The translations under genes and the position numbers were made by a program. Positions 7,266 to 39,720 of a stretch of 40,007 nt of DNA are shown piece by piece (within the stretch, counting starts at the first letter, position 1; the number at the start of each line of letters is the position of its first letter). Origin of the DNA: a virus; the IMG/VR virus record IMGVR_UViG_3300002835_000439, positions 1-40,007 of that record. One strand, written 5' to 3'. The notes below the pieces were generated by a model. That model saw only the letters and a list, made by a program, of their open reading frames with translations. It searched no databases and had not been told where the DNA came from.

Positions 7266-8720
7266 TTAAACTAATGTTAATAAGTTACCAGAACCTCCAT
7301 CAATAGTTACGTTAAATTTAACATATTGAGTTTCTGGGTGGAATCCAGCGTCAACTAATGCGAATCTAGATTTAACAGCAACTTTAGGAGCCATAGTTCC
7401 TTCAGCGATTGTTTGTACTGATTCAGCCATTAAGTAAGGCATGAATACGATACCAGGTCCGTTACCATCTCCTTTTCTACCAACTGCGATTGAATAATCA
7501 TTCCAGTCCATTGTAGGGTCAGTATAAACGTTAACTCCAGCTACAGATCCTAATGGGTAGATAGCTCCAGCAGCTTGTGCGAAAGTGTTTGCCATTGGGT
7601 TTGCAACGAAACCAGCGATTGATTGTAAAACTGTAGCAGTTTGTGGTCCACATACTGCGAAGTTACCAGCTCCTCTTCTACCTCTGTTAGCAATTAAGTT
7701 AGCAGCAGCTAAAATTTGAGAAAGGATTCTTCTGTGTAATGAAGGTAAAGTTTCACCACCAACTAAAGATGCAGCTGTAGGTAAATCTAAGTCAAAACCA
7801 TTAGCACCAAATGCTTTAGTAACGTTAGTAGCACCTAAAGTTCTGATTCTTCCTAAGATGTATTGGTTAATACCTTGAGTTAATTCATTAGTTAAAACAG
7901 CTTCAACTTGAGCAACAGCGTCAACTCCGAATTGTTTTAAATCTTGAACTTGTTCTCTTGTAACGGCAGCAGCAACTTGGAAAGTTTCAGCTGAAACGCT
8001 TTTAGAGAATAAAGATAGACCCATTAATTTGTCTGGAGTTTGTTCACCAGCTTCTCTTGAGAATGGGTTACCATTTTCGTCAGCAGCTACAAATCCTTTA
8101 ATGTGATCTTCTAAAGCTTTTACTAATTCAACTTTAGTTTCAGCAGTAAATAAGTCAGCAACTGTTCTACCAGCTGAAGCGTTTACGTAAGCTTCACCAG
8201 CATCGTTGATTTTGTAGATGCTTAATCCATCGATACGAGATGTACCAACTAATACAGCACCAGCTTGAGTACCTGCAGTACCACCGTCAAGATCAGATAA
8301 AGTACCGTCAGTTTTTACGTAAGTTGGAGTAGTAGAACCAGCTACTTTACCACCTTCGTAAACGAAATCTAAGTAAGATAATAATCCCATTGGACCAGCC
8401 ATAGGAACTACTGGTACTAAGTCAAGACCGATAGTTTGAGCAGCAACTTGCATTGCTAATGGTAATAATGATGGAGCTTTGTCTCCAGAACCTCTTTGAG
8501 CACCAAATGATTGAGCTGTGTTAGGTAAAACTGTAGCACCCATACCAAAGATATTACCTGCAGTACCTAAAGCCATTGTAGATGCATCTTCGTATAATTT
8601 GTGGTTATGACAGTATTCTGACATCCAAGCTAATTTGCTTGCGTCGTTGATACCTGTCGCAGATTCGATAATCGGAGACCACGTTGCTCTGATTTCTGAT
8701 TCATTGATTAAATTTGCCAT
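7266..8720 (-). CDS. 23: Major capsid protein, gp23-like
   Basis: 484 residues beginning MANLINESEIRATW. Position, size (T4 gp23 is 521 aa), glycine/alanine-rich composition and the segment order (short N-terminal region, then MGLLSYLDFVYEGGK, EQVQDLKQFGVDAVAQ, NLIANRGRRGAGNF, CGPQTATVLQS and PYLMAESVQTIAEG) match the T4-type HK97-fold capsid family. In T4 the propeptide is removed by gp21; here an N-terminal propeptide is plausible (possible sites LINE and KLYE), but its end is not certain. It follows the protease/scaffold gene as in T4 (21-22-23). It has a roughly 110-nt leader with a strong A-rich start context (AACAAAAATGGCA) and its own terminator, which fits very high expression. Confidence 0.92.
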   Translation of the reverse strand: MANLINESEIRATWSPIIESATGINDASKLAWMSEYCHNHKLYEDASTMALGTAGNIFGMGATVLPNTAQSFGAQRGSGDKAPSLLPLAMQVAAQTIGLDLVPVVPMAGPMGLLSYLDFVYEGGKVAGSTTPTYVKTDGTLSDLDGGTAGTQAGAVLVGTSRIDGLSIYKINDAGEAYVNASAGRTVADLFTAETKVELVKALEDHIKGFVAADENGNPFSREAGEQTPDKLMGLSLFSKSVSAETFQVAAAVTREQVQDLKQFGVDAVAQVEAVLTNELTQGINQYILGRIRTLGATNVTKAFGANGFDLDLPTAASLVGGETLPSLHRRILSQILAAANLIANRGRRGAGNFAVCGPQTATVLQSIAGFVANPMANTFAQAAGAIYPLGSVAGVNVYTDPTMDWNDYSIAVGRKGDGNGPGIVFMPYLMAESVQTIAEGTMAPKVAVKSRFALVDAGFHPETQYVKFNVTIDGGSGNLLTLV

Positions 8721-8889: not shown

Positions 8890-10233
8890 TTATTTTTTAA
8901 ATCTTTTTGCAATTTCTGCTCCGATTTCAGTAACATCGTATCCTAAAGTTTTAACTTCTTCAACAACTGCTTCATTTACCATAGCGATTTTTTCCATTAC
9001 TGGAGCAGTTTCTCTAAGGTCTCTTGTTTGCCAGAAGTTTGCAACTTGGTAAGAAGTTTCTAATCTATGCATTTTTGATTGTGCAATGATTTGGTTTTTC
9101 TTTGCTTCAGATAATTTAGTCCAAGTTTCATGATATTCGCTTGGCATCATTGAAATAACTGCAAGTGTAGTTTCGTTTGCAGGTACAGCTCCCATTAATG
9201 AATTAGCCCATAATCCTAAGATTTGTCCTTCAGTTAGGTAACCTTTTCCTTCAACTGCGCTTACAACTTTAGATTTTTCTTCAGATGTTAAAGCGTTAAA
9301 TTCATTTACTTTTTCTTCAGAGATAAATTTAATGAATGATGGTCCTTCGTTTTTCTTAGCGTTAACTTTTTCAACGATAGCTTCTAATTTAGAAGCAATT
9401 GAATTTTTGTAAGCTTCCATTGCATCAACGTCTTTACCAGCAGCATCTCCAGAACCTTTAAGTTCTAAATCTCCTTCTTTGTCTTCAACTTTTTCAGCAT
9501 CATATTTTTTACCATCAGCATCAACTACATCTGGAGAAACATCTTTAGTTTCATCTTTAATATCTTCAGCTGGTAAACCTGCATCAGTTCCGTCGTTTGC
9601 TTCTTTAATTTCTTCGCCAGCAGCATCTCCAGAACCTTTAAGTTCTAAGTCTCCTTCTTTGTCTTCAACTTTTTCAGCATCGTAAGTTTTACCATCAGCA
9701 TCAACTACTGCAGGAGAAACATCTTTAGTTCCATCTTCAATATCTTCAGCTGGGATTCCTGCTTCGTCTTCTAATAATAAGTTAGAGTTAACAGTTTCTG
9801 CAACATATTCAGCATATTCAGTTACTTTCTCTAAGTTCTCTCTTAAATATTCAGTATATTTAATTAAGTTCTCATAAGAAGTAGAACCTTCATTATAAGA
9901 TTCAGCTAAATAGTTAGTGTAATTTTTGATAGCATCAACGCTTTCTGCGATATGCTCAGAATATTGAATACCTTGATCCAATTTAACCGCAAGGTTTTCT
10001 GAGTATTGAATACCTTGGTCCGCTTTTTCAGCGATGTGTTCTGAATATTTGATTGATTCGTCTAATTTTTTAGCTAAATAATCAGTATATTCTTTTAATG
10101 TTTCTAATTGAGAACTAGTTGACTCTGATTCTGTTAAAGAATTCATACCTTCTTTAATAGATTTGATTTCTTCAGAAAGATATTTAGAGTATTTATTAAA
10201 ATCCTCAACCGTAATAAATTTTGACTCTGCCAT
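8890..10233 (-). CDS. 22: Possible internally initiated scaffold protein (nested in the protease gene)
   Basis: The codon for Met197 of the fusion (ATG at 10233, peptide MAESKFITVEDFNKYSKYLS) lies exactly at the protease/scaffold junction. Its context ACAAAAATGGCA is nearly identical to that before the capsid start (8720) and the uvsX start (22147). Starting here would give a 447-residue scaffold lacking the protease. A nested scaffold of this kind is established for lambda C/Nu3. Here it is an inference from start context and domain boundary only. Confidence 0.45.
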   Translation of the reverse strand: MAESKFITVEDFNKYSKYLSEEIKSIKEGMNSLTESESTSSQLETLKEYTDYLAKKLDESIKYSEHIAEKADQGIQYSENLAVKLDQGIQYSEHIAESVDAIKNYTNYLAESYNEGSTSYENLIKYTEYLRENLEKVTEYAEYVAETVNSNLLLEDEAGIPAEDIEDGTKDVSPAVVDADGKTYDAEKVEDKEGDLELKGSGDAAGEEIKEANDGTDAGLPAEDIKDETKDVSPDVVDADGKKYDAEKVEDKEGDLELKGSGDAAGKDVDAMEAYKNSIASKLEAIVEKVNAKKNEGPSFIKFISEEKVNEFNALTSEEKSKVVSAVEGKGYLTEGQILGLWANSLMGAVPANETTLAVISMMPSEYHETWTKLSEAKKNQIIAQSKMHRLETSYQVANFWQTRDLRETAPVMEKIAMVNEAVVEEVKTLGYDVTEIGAEIAKRFKK

Positions 10234-10821
10234 TTTTGTTTCGTTTATATTTTCGATTGTTTGTTTTTCATCTGTATTATTTATCTCGTAAATAAATAAG
10301 TCATTTCCTTCATTAACAAATCCATAAGATTCATTAACTCTTTTTAATTCAGCATTTTCAAACCCTGGGTCTGCTACTAAATCATAAGTAAATAATTGTT
10401 TGATTTTTACAGTTCCATTGGATTCAACTGCTCCAGCTGCTCTACTTGAAATTTGTAAGGGAACTCCAGCATCAACAAGAGCCTTTGCCTGTCTTCCTGC
10501 GTCTGTATCTAATAATCTAATACGTCCTTTAACTTGTTTAGTTGCTGTGTCATACGTAAGTTCTTCAATAATGTGTGAAACATTTTTCAAAGAAACATCA
10601 AAAGTTTGTGGGTGATCTAATTCACCTAAAAGTTTTGACGATTTAATTTTTGCTTGTAGAGCTTCAATCTGAGGTAAATACTCAGATTCAGTATAGATTC
10701 GGTTATTACGATTTTTCTTATCGATTTCTCCAAAGATACCTTCTAGAACATAAGTCCCACCTTCCTGTTTAAACTCTAACTCTGTAGATGATCTTTCTAG
10801 GATCAGTAAGTTTTTAGTCAT
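8890..10821 (-). CDS. 21: Fused prohead protease (gp21-like) and scaffold (gp22-like)
   Basis: 643 residues. Residues 1-165 match T4 gp21 prohead protease: YVLEGIFGEIDKKNRNNRIY, LGELDHP with the catalytic His at 70, ISSRAAG with the catalytic Ser at 125/126, and YDLVADPGF. T4 gp21 ends shortly after this (212 aa), but here the frame continues for over 400 residues. A repetitive coiled coil comes first (about 205-345, repeats like YSEHIAEKADQGIQ), then a duplicated acidic 60-residue unit (about 355-465), then a helical C-terminal domain. This continuation occupies the place of the separate T4 scaffold gene 22. A FVNE-G site at 168-172 between the domains resembles the capsid-targeting cleavage site, so self-cleavage there is plausible. 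An internal start at 10233 may yield scaffold alone. Confidence 0.85.
   Translation of the reverse strand: MTKNLLILERSSTELEFKQEGGTYVLEGIFGEIDKKNRNNRIYTESEYLPQIEALQAKIKSSKLLGELDHPQTFDVSLKNVSHIIEELTYDTATKQVKGRIRLLDTDAGRQAKALVDAGVPLQISSRAAGAVESNGTVKIKQLFTYDLVADPGFENAELKRVNESYGFVNEGNDLFIYEINNTDEKQTIENINETKMAESKFITVEDFNKYSKYLSEEIKSIKEGMNSLTESESTSSQLETLKEYTDYLAKKLDESIKYSEHIAEKADQGIQYSENLAVKLDQGIQYSEHIAESVDAIKNYTNYLAESYNEGSTSYENLIKYTEYLRENLEKVTEYAEYVAETVNSNLLLEDEAGIPAEDIEDGTKDVSPAVVDADGKTYDAEKVEDKEGDLELKGSGDAAGEEIKEANDGTDAGLPAEDIKDETKDVSPDVVDADGKKYDAEKVEDKEGDLELKGSGDAAGKDVDAMEAYKNSIASKLEAIVEKVNAKKNEGPSFIKFISEEKVNEFNALTSEEKSKVVSAVEGKGYLTEGQILGLWANSLMGAVPANETTLAVISMMPSEYHETWTKLSEAKKNQIIAQSKMHRLETSYQVANFWQTRDLRETAPVMEKIAMVNEAVVEEVKTLGYDVTEIGAEIAKRFKK
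9437..9760. repeat. 180-bp in-frame tandem duplication in the scaffold region
   Basis: Copies at about 9437-9580 and 9617-9760 are offset by exactly 180 bp and nearly identical. Each encodes a 60-residue acidic unit containing DVSP-VVDADGK and YDAEKVEDKEGDLELKGSGD. The few differences suggest a fairly recent duplication. Confidence 0.9.
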
Positions 10822-10890: not shown

Positions 10891-11241
10891 TTATAAGCCT
10901 GCTAATGGATCTTCTTCTCCACCTTCTGCTTCTTTTTCAGCCTCTTTTTCAGCCTCTTTTTCTTTTTGAGCCTGTTCTTCTCTATAATCATTAAAAAATT
11001 TAACTAGAGTAAATATATCCTCTTCAGTAAACGCAGTGTTTCCGTATGCTTCATAGAAATATTCTTTAAATTCTTTTTCACTCTTACTTGACATAATAGC
11101 ACCTAAGATTTCAGTTGATTTAATTTCTTTTCCTGAATCTAGTGTAACATCATCTACTATTACTTTAGAATCTTCACCTGCTTCGATTGCATCTTCTTGC
11201 AACGAACCCGTAAACTCTTCAAATGTTTTAATTATTCTCAT
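10891..11241 (-). CDS. Acidic prohead core protein (gp67/gp68 position), tagged N-terminus
   Basis: 116 residues. MRIIKTFEEF-TGSLQED resembles the capsid-targeting tag found on other proteins here. The body is helical and acidic (EEDIFTLVKFFNDYREEQA) and ends in a run of KEAEKEAEGGEED. It lies between the portal and the protease/scaffold genes, exactly where T4 carries the small prohead core genes 67 and 68. A core or assembly role, with cleavage by the adjacent protease, is inferred from position, size, charge and tag. Direct sequence similarity to T4 gp67/gp68 is not demonstrated. Confidence 0.65.
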   Translation of the reverse strand: MRIIKTFEEFTGSLQEDAIEAGEDSKVIVDDVTLDSGKEIKSTEILGAIMSSKSEKEFKEYFYEAYGNTAFTEEDIFTLVKFFNDYREEQAQKEKEAEKEAEKEAEGGEEDPLAGL

Positions 11242-11264: not shown

Positions 11265-12872
11265 TTACATTCCTCCCATTCCCATCGCCATTGGATCTTC
11301 GACCTCTGGTTCTTCAGCTTTTTTCGCAGCATTTCTTGCTTTATAAGCTTCATTTGCTGCTTTATCATCTGGAGAAAGTTTAAGGTATCTATCAACTAAA
11401 AAGTCCATATCAAAATATGGAGTTTCTTCCATTGTCATAGGGTCAGTTTTAACCAATGAATCTTTCATTGTACTAATAAAATCAAGTCTTTTACCCATAA
11501 TTTCCATTTGCTTTAATTCAGCAAACATATTTTCTTCATTAAATCTTAATGCAATTTGGGTTCTAAACCCAGCATCTTCTTTAAATTCAGGAAATTTAAG
11601 ACACATTTGTAACCATAATGGTTTAACTAATATCTCTTGGAATGAACTACGTAAACGATTAATGAATTTTGCGAATTTGATTTCATCTCTAATCATTCCA
11701 TCAGCTTCCATTGCAAAATCTCCGCCACCATCTTCATACATAAATCTAGAGTATGGGATTTTTGAAACTGCTTTAAGTTTATCTGAGAAATATTTTAATG
11801 ATTCTGTGTCGCTTAATTCTGGACCATCTCCACCAAGAGTTTCAATCTCTGGTTGTTCTCCGTCCTTACTAGGTAACCAATATTCTTTGTTAAATTGTAA
11901 CATTGGTTTTCCGTTCGTTGTAAGAGAAGCACTGTCCCAATCAAAATCAACAACCTCTTTATAGTTACTCATTAATTGAGAAAGCGATTGTTTTGCTCTT
12001 GTTTTAGATTTACCTCCAACTGGAATAATAAATTTCATTCTATAAGAAGAGTTAGTAACAGCCCAAATAACTCTGGTATGCTCCATAATTCTCATTAAAT
12101 TAAATGAACGGATTAATCTTTCAAGGTAAGAAACCCTTGACGCTGTAGTAATTGAACTATATGAAATGTATACAATTTGAGAATCGTATAATTTTCTTTC
12201 TTTTAATGGATCATCTTTAAACTGAATCCATACTTTTTTACCATCTTCATGGTTATATCCTGGTACTAATGTAACTGGATCAATTTCCTTGAAACCAATA
12301 ATTTCTGTCATTTCGGGATTGTAAATAATCTCAAATGATAGATAACCATCAATCAACCATTTTCTAAAGAAATACCATGCAGATTGATCCATGTTAAAAC
12401 CAAAGTACTGGTAAATATCTCTATATGCTTTATTAAGATATTTTTGAACATCTTCGGAAACTTCCATTCCAATAATTTCTGGATTGGCTATAAAGTTTTT
12501 ATTATCGAATACAATTGATTCATCACATAAAATATCTAGAATGTCTTCGATCTCATCATGTTGAGAAAATGATCGTAGCTCATCTCTTTTACCTTTATAA
12601 TTTTGGTCAAAGAATGGAATATTTTTACGCATTGTGGTGTCAGCCATCGAAAGAGCTGCGAATGCACCATACATATCATCATTGTCCAATCCTAGTGGAT
12701 TCATTTGGCCATAACCAACTAAATCTTCTACTGGACCGATTGCTTGAGATTGTCTAAGCACCAAATCATCATAATACATACCGAAAGAAGATAACTTCTT
12801 CAGAGTGTCGCTTAAGACAAATGGTTTTTTTCCAGTGCTCAATGGACCATTTCTTTGTACAAATCCTGCCAT
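11265..12872 (-). CDS. 20: Portal vertex protein, gp20-like
   Basis: 535 residues (T4 gp20 is 524). The segment DEIKFAKFINRLRSSFQEIL closely matches a hallmark of T4-type portals (DELKFAKFIRRLR). Other family features are IEDILDILCDESIVFD, RKWLIDGYLSFEIIYNP followed by FKEIDPVTLVPGY, and YRMKFIIPVGGKSKTRAKQ. The C-terminus is acidic and methionine/glycine-rich. The portal is the dodecameric ring that starts prohead assembly and through which DNA is packaged. It follows the gp2-like gene and precedes the core and protease genes, matching T4 head order. A GAATATATAAC motif lies 22 nt upstream. Confidence 0.92.
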   Translation of the reverse strand: MAGFVQRNGPLSTGKKPFVLSDTLKKLSSFGMYYDDLVLRQSQAIGPVEDLVGYGQMNPLGLDNDDMYGAFAALSMADTTMRKNIPFFDQNYKGKRDELRSFSQHDEIEDILDILCDESIVFDNKNFIANPEIIGMEVSEDVQKYLNKAYRDIYQYFGFNMDQSAWYFFRKWLIDGYLSFEIIYNPEMTEIIGFKEIDPVTLVPGYNHEDGKKVWIQFKDDPLKERKLYDSQIVYISYSSITTASRVSYLERLIRSFNLMRIMEHTRVIWAVTNSSYRMKFIIPVGGKSKTRAKQSLSQLMSNYKEVVDFDWDSASLTTNGKPMLQFNKEYWLPSKDGEQPEIETLGGDGPELSDTESLKYFSDKLKAVSKIPYSRFMYEDGGGDFAMEADGMIRDEIKFAKFINRLRSSFQEILVKPLWLQMCLKFPEFKEDAGFRTQIALRFNEENMFAELKQMEIMGKRLDFISTMKDSLVKTDPMTMEETPYFDMDFLVDRYLKLSPDDKAANEAYKARNAAKKAEEPEVEDPMAMGMGGM

Positions 12873-24429: not shown

Positions 24430-24762
24430 TTATTTATATTCAGATTCGTATTTTGACTTTAACTCTTCCCAAGCAGCTTTATATTTTGCTGGAATTTTAT
24501 CTGGTCCATATACTCTAGAATTAGATTTTTTAGAAGAACCTACGTTATAGTTTTCACCAGTGTAATATTCCATAAATTCATCTCCGGTTTTTCTTGCACC
24601 ATCATCTTTAATATAAATTCCATACGTGATAAAAGTATCTGAATCTAAGTGACCTTGTAAAATATCGCAAGATGGATTATGGTCTTTATGTGAGTTAAAT
24701 TTAAAATCAATAAATTTAACAGCTTCATTAATGAATTCTTCGTATAATTTAATATGTTTCAT
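24430..24762 (-). CDS. Tagged small protein, capsid-targeting-like N-terminus
   Basis: 110 residues. MKHIKLYEEFINEA is the shared N-terminal tag, resembling T4 internal-protein targeting sequences (MKTYQEFIAEA) with a probable cut after FINE. The mature part is mixed alpha/beta with TFITYGIYIKDDG, EYYTGENYNVG and a helical end AAWEELKSKYESEYK. No family is recognised. It is the last of three consecutive small tagged genes (25488, 25033, 24762) and is followed by a terminator. It may be a packaged internal protein ejected into the host. Confidence 0.7.
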   Translation of the reverse strand: MKHIKLYEEFINEAVKFIDFKFNSHKDHNPSCDILQGHLDSDTFITYGIYIKDDGARKTGDEFMEYYTGENYNVGSSKKSNSRVYGPDKIPAKYKAAWEELKSKYESEYK

Positions 24763-24772
24763 TTTGTTTCGT

Positions 24773-25033
24773 TTATTTAAGATATTGAAAACATGCTTTA
24801 GTAACCTCTTCTACTGTGTTTGCTACTGCATTAAAGTCTTCGATAAAAACTTGACCTTGAATAGTGTCCCATTCAACACCATCTTTAATTCCGTCGAAAT
24901 CAAAGGCAAAAATGCCTTTTTTAGTTTCTTTTACATTAGATATTTCATAAACTCCTTCAAGTTCTTTTAATGCTTTTTTAAGGTCTAATTTTCCTTCGTT
25001 TACGAATTGTTCGAATAATTGGATGTGTTTCAT
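24773..25033 (-). CDS. Tagged small protein, capsid-targeting-like N-terminus
   Basis: 86 residues. MKHIQLFEQFVNEG carries the same tag, with a probable cut after FVNE. The remaining 73 residues have a helix (LDLKKALKELEGVYE), strands GIFAFDFDGIKDG and GQVFIEDFN, and a terminal helix. No family is recognised. The reading frame is separated by 10 nt from the next tagged gene. The leader contains three 10-bp tandem repeats. Confidence 0.7.
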   Translation of the reverse strand: MKHIQLFEQFVNEGKLDLKKALKELEGVYEISNVKETKKGIFAFDFDGIKDGVEWDTIQGQVFIEDFNAVANTVEEVTKACFQYLK

Positions 25034-25152: not shown

Positions 25153-25488
25153 TTATTTTTCGTTAGCTCTACACCAGTTAAGCGCGTCTTTAACAGTTTC
25201 TAATTCCTCGTCGTATCCACTTAAGTCATAAATACCTAAAATGGTTTCTCCATCATCATTTAAGTAGAATGAAAACTCTTCCATTTCTCCTTCGTGTCTA
25301 TCTGCTTCTGATTCTAATCCATTTGCAAATTTAACAATATGCGGAAATTCTTCCATTCCGTCAAATCCCCATGAAATTGATTTTTTATTTTTAGCTTTAG
25401 ATAATTCTTTGAATAATTTTACTAATATTTCTGGTTTTTTATCAGAAGCTTCATTAACAAACTCTTCGAATAACTGTGTGTATTTCAT
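25153..25488 (-). CDS. Tagged small protein, capsid-targeting-like N-terminus
   Basis: 111 residues. MKYTQLFEEFVNEA is the shared tag with a probable cut after FVNE. The acidic body contains SISWGFDGMEEFPHIVKF, EGEMEEFSFYLNDDGET and a terminal helix ending CRANEK. No family is recognised. It has two candidate promoters in tandem: a GATATATAAC motif at 25511-25521 and the host-type promoter at 25523-25574. It may therefore be made both early and late. It heads the trio of small tagged genes. Confidence 0.7.
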   Translation of the reverse strand: MKYTQLFEEFVNEASDKKPEILVKLFKELSKAKNKKSISWGFDGMEEFPHIVKFANGLESEADRHEGEMEEFSFYLNDDGETILGIYDLSGYDEELETVKDALNWCRANEK

Positions 25489-37900: not shown

Positions 37901-38266
37901 TTATTTAATAATTATAAATGAACCTCCTCTAGAAGATGCAGATTCAGATCTACCATCGGCTAATGTAACTGAAGCTACTGCTTCTCCTCCGATTGTTGTA
38001 GCAACTTCTTGAGCAACTTGAGTTACTTCAAAAAATACAATACTTCCACCATTGTCTGCTAAAATATTATATCCAGTACCTTCTACGGTATTAGGTTTTT
38101 TAATAATCTTATTGATAGTACCATCAACTTTTTTAGCAGTCATATTAACGATGAAAACACCAGTACGACTTTTGTAAGCTTTTGGGCTTTGAGCATTTTC
38201 AATTGGCTCATACACATTGTGATCAGATTCGTTTACAAAATCTTCAAATAGTTTAATATGTTTCAT
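37901..38266 (-). CDS. Tagged small protein, capsid-targeting-like N-terminus
   Basis: 121 residues. MKHIKLFEDFVNES is the clearest form of the shared tag, with a probable cut after FVNE. The mature part is beta-rich (TGVFIVNMTAKKVDGTINKI, GYNILADNGGSIVFFEVTQV) and ends in a glycine/serine-rich stretch SASSRGGSFIIIK. No family is recognised. It follows the DUF2828-like gene by 26 nt, carries a GATATATAAA motif upstream and leads into the structured RNA region. A packaged internal protein is inferred. Confidence 0.72.
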   Translation of the reverse strand: MKHIKLFEDFVNESDHNVYEPIENAQSPKAYKSRTGVFIVNMTAKKVDGTINKIIKKPNTVEGTGYNILADNGGSIVFFEVTQVAQEVATTIGGEAVASVTLADGRSESASSRGGSFIIIK

Positions 38267-38292: not shown

Positions 38293-39720
38293 TTAAACAA
38301 TTGGAGAATATCTCTCACTCAAAATTGTTTTGTCCATAATTTGCTGTGGAGACTCAATATCTCCTCCAAGTAAGCTTGTCATGATTGCTGGAGAGAATCC
38401 TGAAATTAATGCAGTTCCTGCTGTATCAAATGCAACTGGTACTCCACCATTTCTGGATTGAATGTTCCAATAAACAATTTGAGGCATTTTGTAACCTGAA
38501 GACTCATACATGTCGTTAATTACTTGTTGAGCTGTTGGGTTCCATGATGCTTCATTTCTCCAACCACTAGATCTGGTTGCCGCGTTAAACTCCATATCTG
38601 ATAGGATTAGGATTTTATTTGGCATCTCATCTTGAGACAATTTATGCTTAGTGGCCTGATCTAAGATCAGCTTGAAAGTTGCCTCAAGATCTGTAGACAT
38701 TCCCCAATCGGAGTTTGACATCTGTGTGTAGCGATCTTTCAATGAACCACTTAATACTTGTAACTGCGGAGTACTTGAGAATGTTATAAATGCATCTTTA
38801 AAAGGACCTTCATTTCTTTCAGAAATATAAAGACCCAAAGAGATTGCAACATCCATACATGTTACTGATTTGCTACCTCCTGCTGAGCAAGACATAGAAC
38901 CTGAAACGTCCACAACTGGTAAAATCATATCGTTTGCTCCTTCTAAATAATTAGGAAGGGCTTTCCATTGTTCGTTTGCTACGGTTGCATTTCCATAATT
39001 TAATGATTTTGTAACATCATAAGGATAAACTGCACCTGCATTAATTGTAGCCTCTCCTTTTACAAGGGAAGCAATATAAGCTGAATAACTTTCATATGCA
39101 TTTTTACCAAAGGCTTTTTGGTATCTTGCAGAAGCAACTGATGGTAATTTACCGAATTCGATAGAATCCCATTCTTTAGCACACATTTTAGTTTCAACTA
39201 CATTAGTCAAGTTAACTAAAGTTTTACGGTATTGTTTTGGAGATAAATCCATGAATTTACGTAACTTTTCAGCATGCTGACCTTTACGTGGCATCCACTT
39301 AGCACATAAACCATTTTCTGCTTTAATAGCATTTTCAATTATAGTTAATGCAGCGTCTTCTAAATATGTTCCAAAAAGAGATAATAAGTCATCAAAACGA
39401 CCATACTCTGGAATTAAGTGTAAATTTGGTTTTAAGACCAAATCATGATTTTCTGCTAGGTAAACGATAATGTCTTTAAAAACTTGACGTTCTCCAGCTC
39501 CACCACGAACATCTCTAGCCCAAAACAAAAGTTTCATAGCACGCTTAGGATCTTCATTAAATGCTAAAGAAAATGTACGAATCAAACGTTCTTTGTCTTG
39601 TCCTCTCATAGCACCAATATTAAAGAAAAGGTCGACACAAGCGTTCAACGATGTTGAATTAGTTGCCATTCCGTTTTCTGTTACAATATCTTCTTGTCTT
39701 AATGCGTCTACGAATTTCAT
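38293..39720 (-). CDS. DUF2828/TROVE-like protein with C-terminal von Willebrand A domain
   Basis: 475 residues. The N-terminal helical-repeat part has KRAMKLLFWARDVRGGAGER, LHLIPEYGRFDDLLSLFG and LCAKWMPRKG, as in DUF2828 and the related TROVE (Ro60/Rsr) module. The C-terminal vWA domain has a MIDAS motif DVSGSMS (Asp271, Ser273, Ser275), WGMSTDLEATF for the second metal loop, KILILSDMEFNAATRSSGW and VYWNIQSRNGGVPV. Ro proteins bind Y RNAs and misfolded RNA and assist RNA decay. DUF2828 proteins are uncharacterised. A structured RNA lies downstream in the same direction, recalling bacterial Ro-Y RNA loci. Confidence 0.78.
   Translation of the reverse strand: MKFVDALRQEDIVTENGMATNSTSLNACVDLFFNIGAMRGQDKERLIRTFSLAFNEDPKRAMKLLFWARDVRGGAGERQVFKDIIVYLAENHDLVLKPNLHLIPEYGRFDDLLSLFGTYLEDAALTIIENAIKAENGLCAKWMPRKGQHAEKLRKFMDLSPKQYRKTLVNLTNVVETKMCAKEWDSIEFGKLPSVASARYQKAFGKNAYESYSAYIASLVKGEATINAGAVYPYDVTKSLNYGNATVANEQWKALPNYLEGANDMILPVVDVSGSMSCSAGGSKSVTCMDVAISLGLYISERNEGPFKDAFITFSSTPQLQVLSGSLKDRYTQMSNSDWGMSTDLEATFKLILDQATKHKLSQDEMPNKILILSDMEFNAATRSSGWRNEASWNPTAQQVINDMYESSGYKMPQIVYWNIQSRNGGVPVAFDTAGTALISGFSPAIMTSLLGGDIESPQQIMDKTILSERYSPIV

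Follow-up and report, generated by a model that had tools for sequence, protein, structure and literature searches.

A single minus-strand reading frame of a viral DNA encodes a prohead protease of the T4 gp21 type joined to what is very probably an assembly scaffold. It is likely that two co-terminal products are made from this frame, a fusion that is packaged through its scaffold half and a free scaffold, and that the packaged protease would release itself and digest the scaffold together with head proteins. The DNA analyzed here, called the window throughout, is the whole stretch of 40,007 nucleotides (positions 1 to 40,007) of the IMG/VR virus record IMGVR_UViG_3300002835_000439.

The Fused Reading Frame and Its Two Halves

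The fused open reading frame (8890..10821, minus strand) consists of 643 open codons and a stop, and its product has 643 aa and 71.6 kDa. The S77 (gp21-like) protease domain occupies residues 10-164 (10330..10794, minus strand). Residues 21-135 match Pfam Peptidase_S77 (2.6e-11; 43.8 bits vs. a cut-off of 27), residues 12-360 match phrog_207 'head maturation protease' (5.6e-42), and the T4 gp21 crystal structure (5jbl) was the sole match in the PDB by sequence. Chains of 5jbl also ranked first when a low-confidence structure model was searched with Foldseek (1e-6, TM 0.61-0.67 by target). His70 and Ser125 align with His85 and Ser140 of T4 gp21, positions that are Ala in the 5jbl chain sequence, and the catalytic His and Ser are invariant in two alignments. 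Judged by sequence, the N-terminal half is an active-looking S77 protease of the T4 gp21 type. A second S77 homolog of 132 aa was seen at two loci of relatives, L491 (G003:C1:57260-57595) and L492 (G001:C1:156319-156654); Tyr replaces the catalytic His (GELGYP), the SSR motif is missing, and the protein is probably a catalytically dead protease paralogue.

The order portal, small ORF, fused ORF and gp23-type capsid gene is that of T4 (portal, 67/68, 21, 22, 23). The gp20-like portal (11265..12872; Pfam Portal_T4, 3.5e-69), the small acidic ORF at the place of T4 gp67/gp68 (10891..11241) and the gp23-like major capsid protein (7266..8720; Pfam Gp23, 1.4e-41) are all on the minus strand. The small ORF, between portal and protease, gave no family match among Pfam and PHROG profiles; it has a tag-like N-terminus and encodes a probable core protein. 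The capsid protein carries a candidate cleavage site, KLYE|DA, at whose position the capsid proteins of relatives have [LIM]xE|[ND]. The sequence TATATAATA, a candidate late promoter, occurs seven times, on the minus strand only (5474, 7194, 8836, 10852, 15285, 27763, and 36047), mostly just upstream of genes, those for the capsid and the protease among them. Elsewhere in the window, a 475-aa protein (38293-39720, minus strand) matches DUF7788 and DUF2828, an unusual family for a phage.

The C-terminal half sits at the place of T4 gp22, between the protease and the major capsid gene, with no other gene there. It is acidic (pI 4.5), helical in the model and rich in cleavage motifs, and three parts can be recognized, all on the minus strand. 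The first is a coiled-coil of 14-residue repeats (YSEHIAE...; residues 205-349, 9775..10209), with helices in a low-confidence model and [IL]xE motifs above shuffles (p=0.005). It is followed by a predominantly disordered acidic linker that includes a two-copy repeat (residues 350-465, 9427..9774; pLDDT mostly <50) and by a C-terminal helical domain (residues 466-643, 8893..9426; AlphaFold2 pLDDT 71) with a conserved FW.TR motif and the ending RFKK. The scaffold part as a whole holds 16 [IL]xE motifs vs. 8.0 in shuffles (p=0.003), and the portal holds 2 vs. 5.7, which is consistent with a scaffold built for digestion. Alignment of the C-terminal half with 11 gp22 sequences by hhalign gave a best P of about 0.04 and a probability of about 1%, homology was not detected in a comparison with 3 gp22 sequences, and when the C-terminal domain was compared with models of viral proteins by Foldseek, the only matches were an uncharacterized viral protein and another that is annotated as a T4 prohead protease. 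Based on position, composition and architecture, the C-terminal half is very probably the assembly scaffold. The fusion of protease and probable scaffold in one frame, as proposed in an earlier note on this DNA, is real; the protease is identified by the ORF and its Pfam, phrog_207 and 5jbl matches, and the scaffold is supported by position and architecture. The 14-residue repeats number about 8 in a relative of ~235 kb vs. 11-13 in phages of 436-735 kb (L082-L085, L329, L352); the repeat number might act as a ruler of capsid size, a comparison of two clades only.

Fusion among Relatives and Candidate Cleavage Sites

Among 373 loci, 330 ORFs contain the C-terminal domain together with the protease, so that fusion is found in every one of the 330 relatives with both ends, although sequences inside a clade are not independent of each other. 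Most of the 40 protease-only ORFs run off a contig end; the rest are mainly distant types (T4, avDM6, cyanophage, and Lak) and a few divergent contigs. The Lak phage is fused too, its C-terminal half having been missed by the profile, and has a weak context at the internal Met. Metagenomic huge phages of 462-735 kb (LR756500-LR756504) are among the relatives, and, read across these loci, the fusion is ancient and stable. Separate gp21 and gp22 genes are found in T4, avDM6, Lw1, Thanatos-2, the cyanophages S-RIM50 and ACG-2014f, Sharanji, SCTP-2, Campylobacter F361, RHph_Y68, and PAU. The two genes share a frame in 7 of 11 split phages; since four are close relatives, no conclusion is drawn on an ancestral common frame.

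Two sites around the protease domain resemble those of T4. Residues 1-9 (MTKNLLILE; 10795..10821, minus strand) form a putative N-terminal propeptide, and the 128 distinct relatives listed have LI[LVI]E close to their N-terminus. It was reported that T4 gp21 cleaves off nine of its own N-terminal residues (PMC9958956), and its N-terminus, MNEPQLLIE, likewise ends in E9. The deposited start of PTm1 ORF-300 (L374) looks too late; the frame upstream (MKKLIVE...) restores the conserved propeptide. At the other end of the domain, RVNE164|S165 (10327..10341, minus strand) is the candidate C-terminal self-cleavage site: the motif [VLIM]NE|[SAE] (residues 161-165) is shared by all 146 distinct junctions and, in an alignment, falls on KEITE|S of T4 gp21, for which a paper cited in PMC5694885 suggested C-terminal autocleavage. 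The earlier note had placed self-cleavage at FVNE171|G172 (residues 168-172; 10306..10320, minus strand). This motif is present and fits the [VIL]-N-E| specificity, but other relatives have FDND, FAND, FEND or FAAD there; it was rejected as the main site, the conserved motif lying just upstream, and is retained as a possible second site in near relatives. The conserved I[YF][EDQ] at residues 176-178 was also rejected, as it lies in a predicted strand and E is replaced by D or Q in some relatives.

The specificity was derived from tagged proteins of the same lineage. Four window proteins (24430-24762, 24773-25033, 25153-25488, and 37901-38266, all minus strand) share the N-terminal tag MK[HY][IT][KQ]L[FY]E.F[VI]NE|[AGS], e.g., MKHIQLFEQFVNE|G. 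About 20 matches to the tag, some at overlapping loci, lie on one strand of a 234-kb relative (L014 record, G003), in which the reversed-pattern control gave 0. In 13 distinct proteins P3 is V, I or L, P2 is mostly N and P1 is E, and both RVNE164|S165 and FVNE171|G172 fit this pattern. T4 has comparable capsid-targeting tags (PMC9958956, PMC5694885), and the shared tag suggests that these proteins are a large set of packaged internal proteins.

The Proposed Internal Start Codon and Alternative Readings

Met197 (10231..10233, minus strand) is the proposed start of the free scaffold, which would have 447 aa, 49.6 kDa and a pI of about 4.5. A Met precedes the scaffold motif in all 146 distinct junctions (example MAESKFITVEDFNKYS), although the linker that separates the Met from the NE motif varies in composition and from 29 to 52 residues in length. 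The first locus search used six patterns, and one of them, ENINETKM, contains the junction Met; the conservation is no search artefact, because later searches used protease-only or C-terminal-only patterns.

The synonymous codons ahead of the Met carry a second signal, which was measured over the eight preceding codons in 36 representatives that share no more than 80% identity across the context. Ile is ATA in 27 of 37 cases (73%) vs. 117 of 1143 elsewhere (10%; p=2.7e-18), Thr is ACA in 30 of 40 vs. 381 of 1157 (p=1.1e-7), and Lys is AAA in 52 of 52 (p=9.5e-8). The bias toward A rises across some 16 codons and ceases at the ATG, A making up 59-68% of the stretch before the ATG vs. 32-38% of the coding stretches on both sides. 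Such an end at the ATG is what an initiation region would show, rather than a general property of the linker, and points to selection for a translation start. In the window, the 24 nt ahead of the ATG (10234..10257, minus strand) form this A-rich region; A fills 15 of the 20 positions preceding Met197, the highest count for any of 247 internal Mets (mean 7.2). The distant huge-phage clade keeps the Met too; its codon heterozygosity is 0.20 at the junction vs. 0.40 in other conserved columns, and its junction A-run is placed as at the clade's own gene starts. Shine-Dalgarno sequences are rare at the gene starts of both clades (11/399 and 2/104). Initiation in Flavobacterium johnsoniae, which lacks Shine-Dalgarno sequences, was reported to be favoured by A at -3, -6, -12, and -13 (PMC6847099), and the host of the window is therefore likely to belong to the Bacteroidota. 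A bS21-like ORF, sought as a link to this mode of initiation, was not found in the window.

The resemblance of the Met197 context to the capsid and uvsX starts, also claimed in the earlier note, was confirmed: the window contains three copies of ACAAAAATGGCA vs. 0.03 expected, one each at the starts of the capsid and uvsX-like genes and at the Met197 junction. A first start matrix from 36 window starts was too noisy and was replaced by one trained on 362 starts of relatives, which puts Met197 at the 98.8th percentile among internal Mets but only at the 15th among real starts (2.07 bits vs. 11.39 for start 1); the matrix rewards non-coding features that are impossible for a start within a gene. 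Met197 is thus a middling start by this measure, which sits uneasily with a large excess of scaffold. Context by itself was rejected as proof, because the unconserved Met584 scores about as high, in stronger predicted mRNA structure (-4.6 kcal/mol vs. -1.0 at Met197); conservation and codon bias are the evidence. A survey of 146 distinct junctions for relatives lacking the Met and its context did not refute the internal start put forward in the earlier note, and this reading is supported. Taken together, the nucleotide-level selection at this start indicates that ribosomes also initiate at Met197 and would yield the scaffold alone.

A divergent fused group comprises Rhizobium phage RHph_Y65, E. 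coli phage IME392, Acinetobacter phage Ab1-TPeters and eight viral contigs, with proteobacterial hosts where known. A Shine-Dalgarno match of at least 4 nt precedes the junction Met in 11 of 11 members vs. 17 of 71 other internal Mets (p=1.5e-6), a value weakened by the assignment of the junction Met of several contigs by eye from alignment position. The linker in the fused ORFs of the Tenacibaculum phages PTm1 and pT24 contains no Met; the internal start is thus neither obligatory nor universal. On balance, we favour the wider view that nested scaffold starts recur in phages with S77 proteases, in at least two divergent fused groups that keep a start codon where the scaffold begins, with signals of their own type (A-rich without Shine-Dalgarno in the window's clades; Shine-Dalgarno in the Rhizobium/E. 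coli/Acinetobacter group), that one gene would thereby set the protease:scaffold ratio, and that this ORF is the unrecognized gp22 counterpart of huge phages.

Three other readings of the junction were weighed. The full-length fusion might be the sole product, with the scaffold freed by self-cleavage at RVNE164|S165 as in P2 gpO, one chain giving both parts at 1:1. The invariant cleavage motif and the existence of PTm1 and pT24, which indicate that fusions of this kind can work, speak for it, but the junction ATG and A-ending codons of both clades and the Shine-Dalgarno sequences of the second group would be left unexplained, and we regard it as unlikely. A shorter transcript starting at Met197, made from an internal promoter like that of herpesvirus UL26.5, would yield the same two proteins anyway; the promoter-like TATATAATA precedes seven minus-strand genes, the fused ORF and capsid gene included, and TATAAACG lies at 10249, yet neither TATATAATA nor TANNTTTG occurs between 10500 and Met197 and TATAAA is missing in relatives such as L026 and L033, which makes this source very improbable. 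That the ATG and A-rich tract are a functionless relic of a separate gp22, or an amino-acid requirement of the linker, is scarcely credible: gp21 and gp22 lie a short distance apart as separate genes in T4, avDM6, Lw1, S-RIM50 and others, so that fusion through stop loss is plausible, but relics decay, and all 36 representatives keep the ATG and the synonymous bias amid a shuffled flanking linker.

Proposed Head Maturation and Comparison with Known Systems

For the two-product reading, the following course is proposed, in which we infer from sequence the use of the Met197 start and its amount, the scaffold function, and the cleavages and their order. Initiation at start 1 (10821) would give the protease-scaffold fusion and initiation at start 2 (Met197, 10233) the free scaffold. 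The fusion would enter the prohead core because its C-terminal half is proposed to co-assemble with free scaffold. The earlier note proposed a few fusions within a core of free scaffold, and a strong scaffold excess in proheads is likewise predicted here. On closure of the shell, the protease would be activated by loss of its nine-residue propeptide, sever itself from the scaffold at RVNE164|S165 and then digest the scaffold, along with other proteins of the head, at [VIL]xE sites.

In phage lambda, the C-terminal part of the C protease gene is also made alone, as the Nu3 scaffold, from an in-frame internal start, and the C protease belongs to a ClpP-like family. The earlier note had called the present arrangement lambda C/Nu3-like in a T4-like phage, and at the level of sequence the comparison holds, since protease and probable scaffold are joined in frame and the start codon inside the gene, where the scaffold begins, is under selection; the lambda protease is of another family, whereas the window has an S77/gp21 protease in a T4-type head cluster. 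Herpesvirus UL26/UL26.5 likewise combines a protease-scaffold fusion with a co-terminal free scaffold, but UL26.5 comes from an internal transcript and the protease family is unrelated. An interaction of lambda C with Nu3 is listed in PMC3224144. T4 shares the protease family, the order 20-(67/68)-21-22-23, the N-terminal LLxE9 propeptide and the [IVL]xE motif; gp21 and gp22, however, are separate genes there, and the internal start of gene 21 is near its own N-terminus (NP_813810), not at a scaffold. PTm1 and pT24, phages of Bacteroidota, resemble the window in their fused S77 protease and long C-terminal region, annotated 'prohead core scaffolding protein and protease' / 'prohead core scaffold', but have no linker Met and hence no evident internal ATG start. 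In the giant phage SPN3US, the gp245 protease removes a C-terminal propeptide autocatalytically, and a role of this propeptide in directing the protease to the core has been proposed (PMC7411985); the propeptide has 64 residues, and the scaffold candidate gp22 is a separate protein.

No description of a gp21-gp22 fusion with an internal start was found in the open-access papers searched, in which the nested-start arrangement, known from lambda, is apparently undescribed for the S77 family. A likely scaffold is hereby identified for huge T4-like phages. Genome annotations name the protease only, and a second product would be missed; cultured members exist in E. coli phage IME392, Rhizobium phage RHph_Y65 and Acinetobacter phage Ab1-TPeters. 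T4 requires its scaffold in large excess over the protease (gp22 ~580, gp21 ~55; PMC9958956). The same design in groups with different initiation signals suggests a route from a fused gene to the unequal amounts of protease and scaffold that T4 obtains from two genes.
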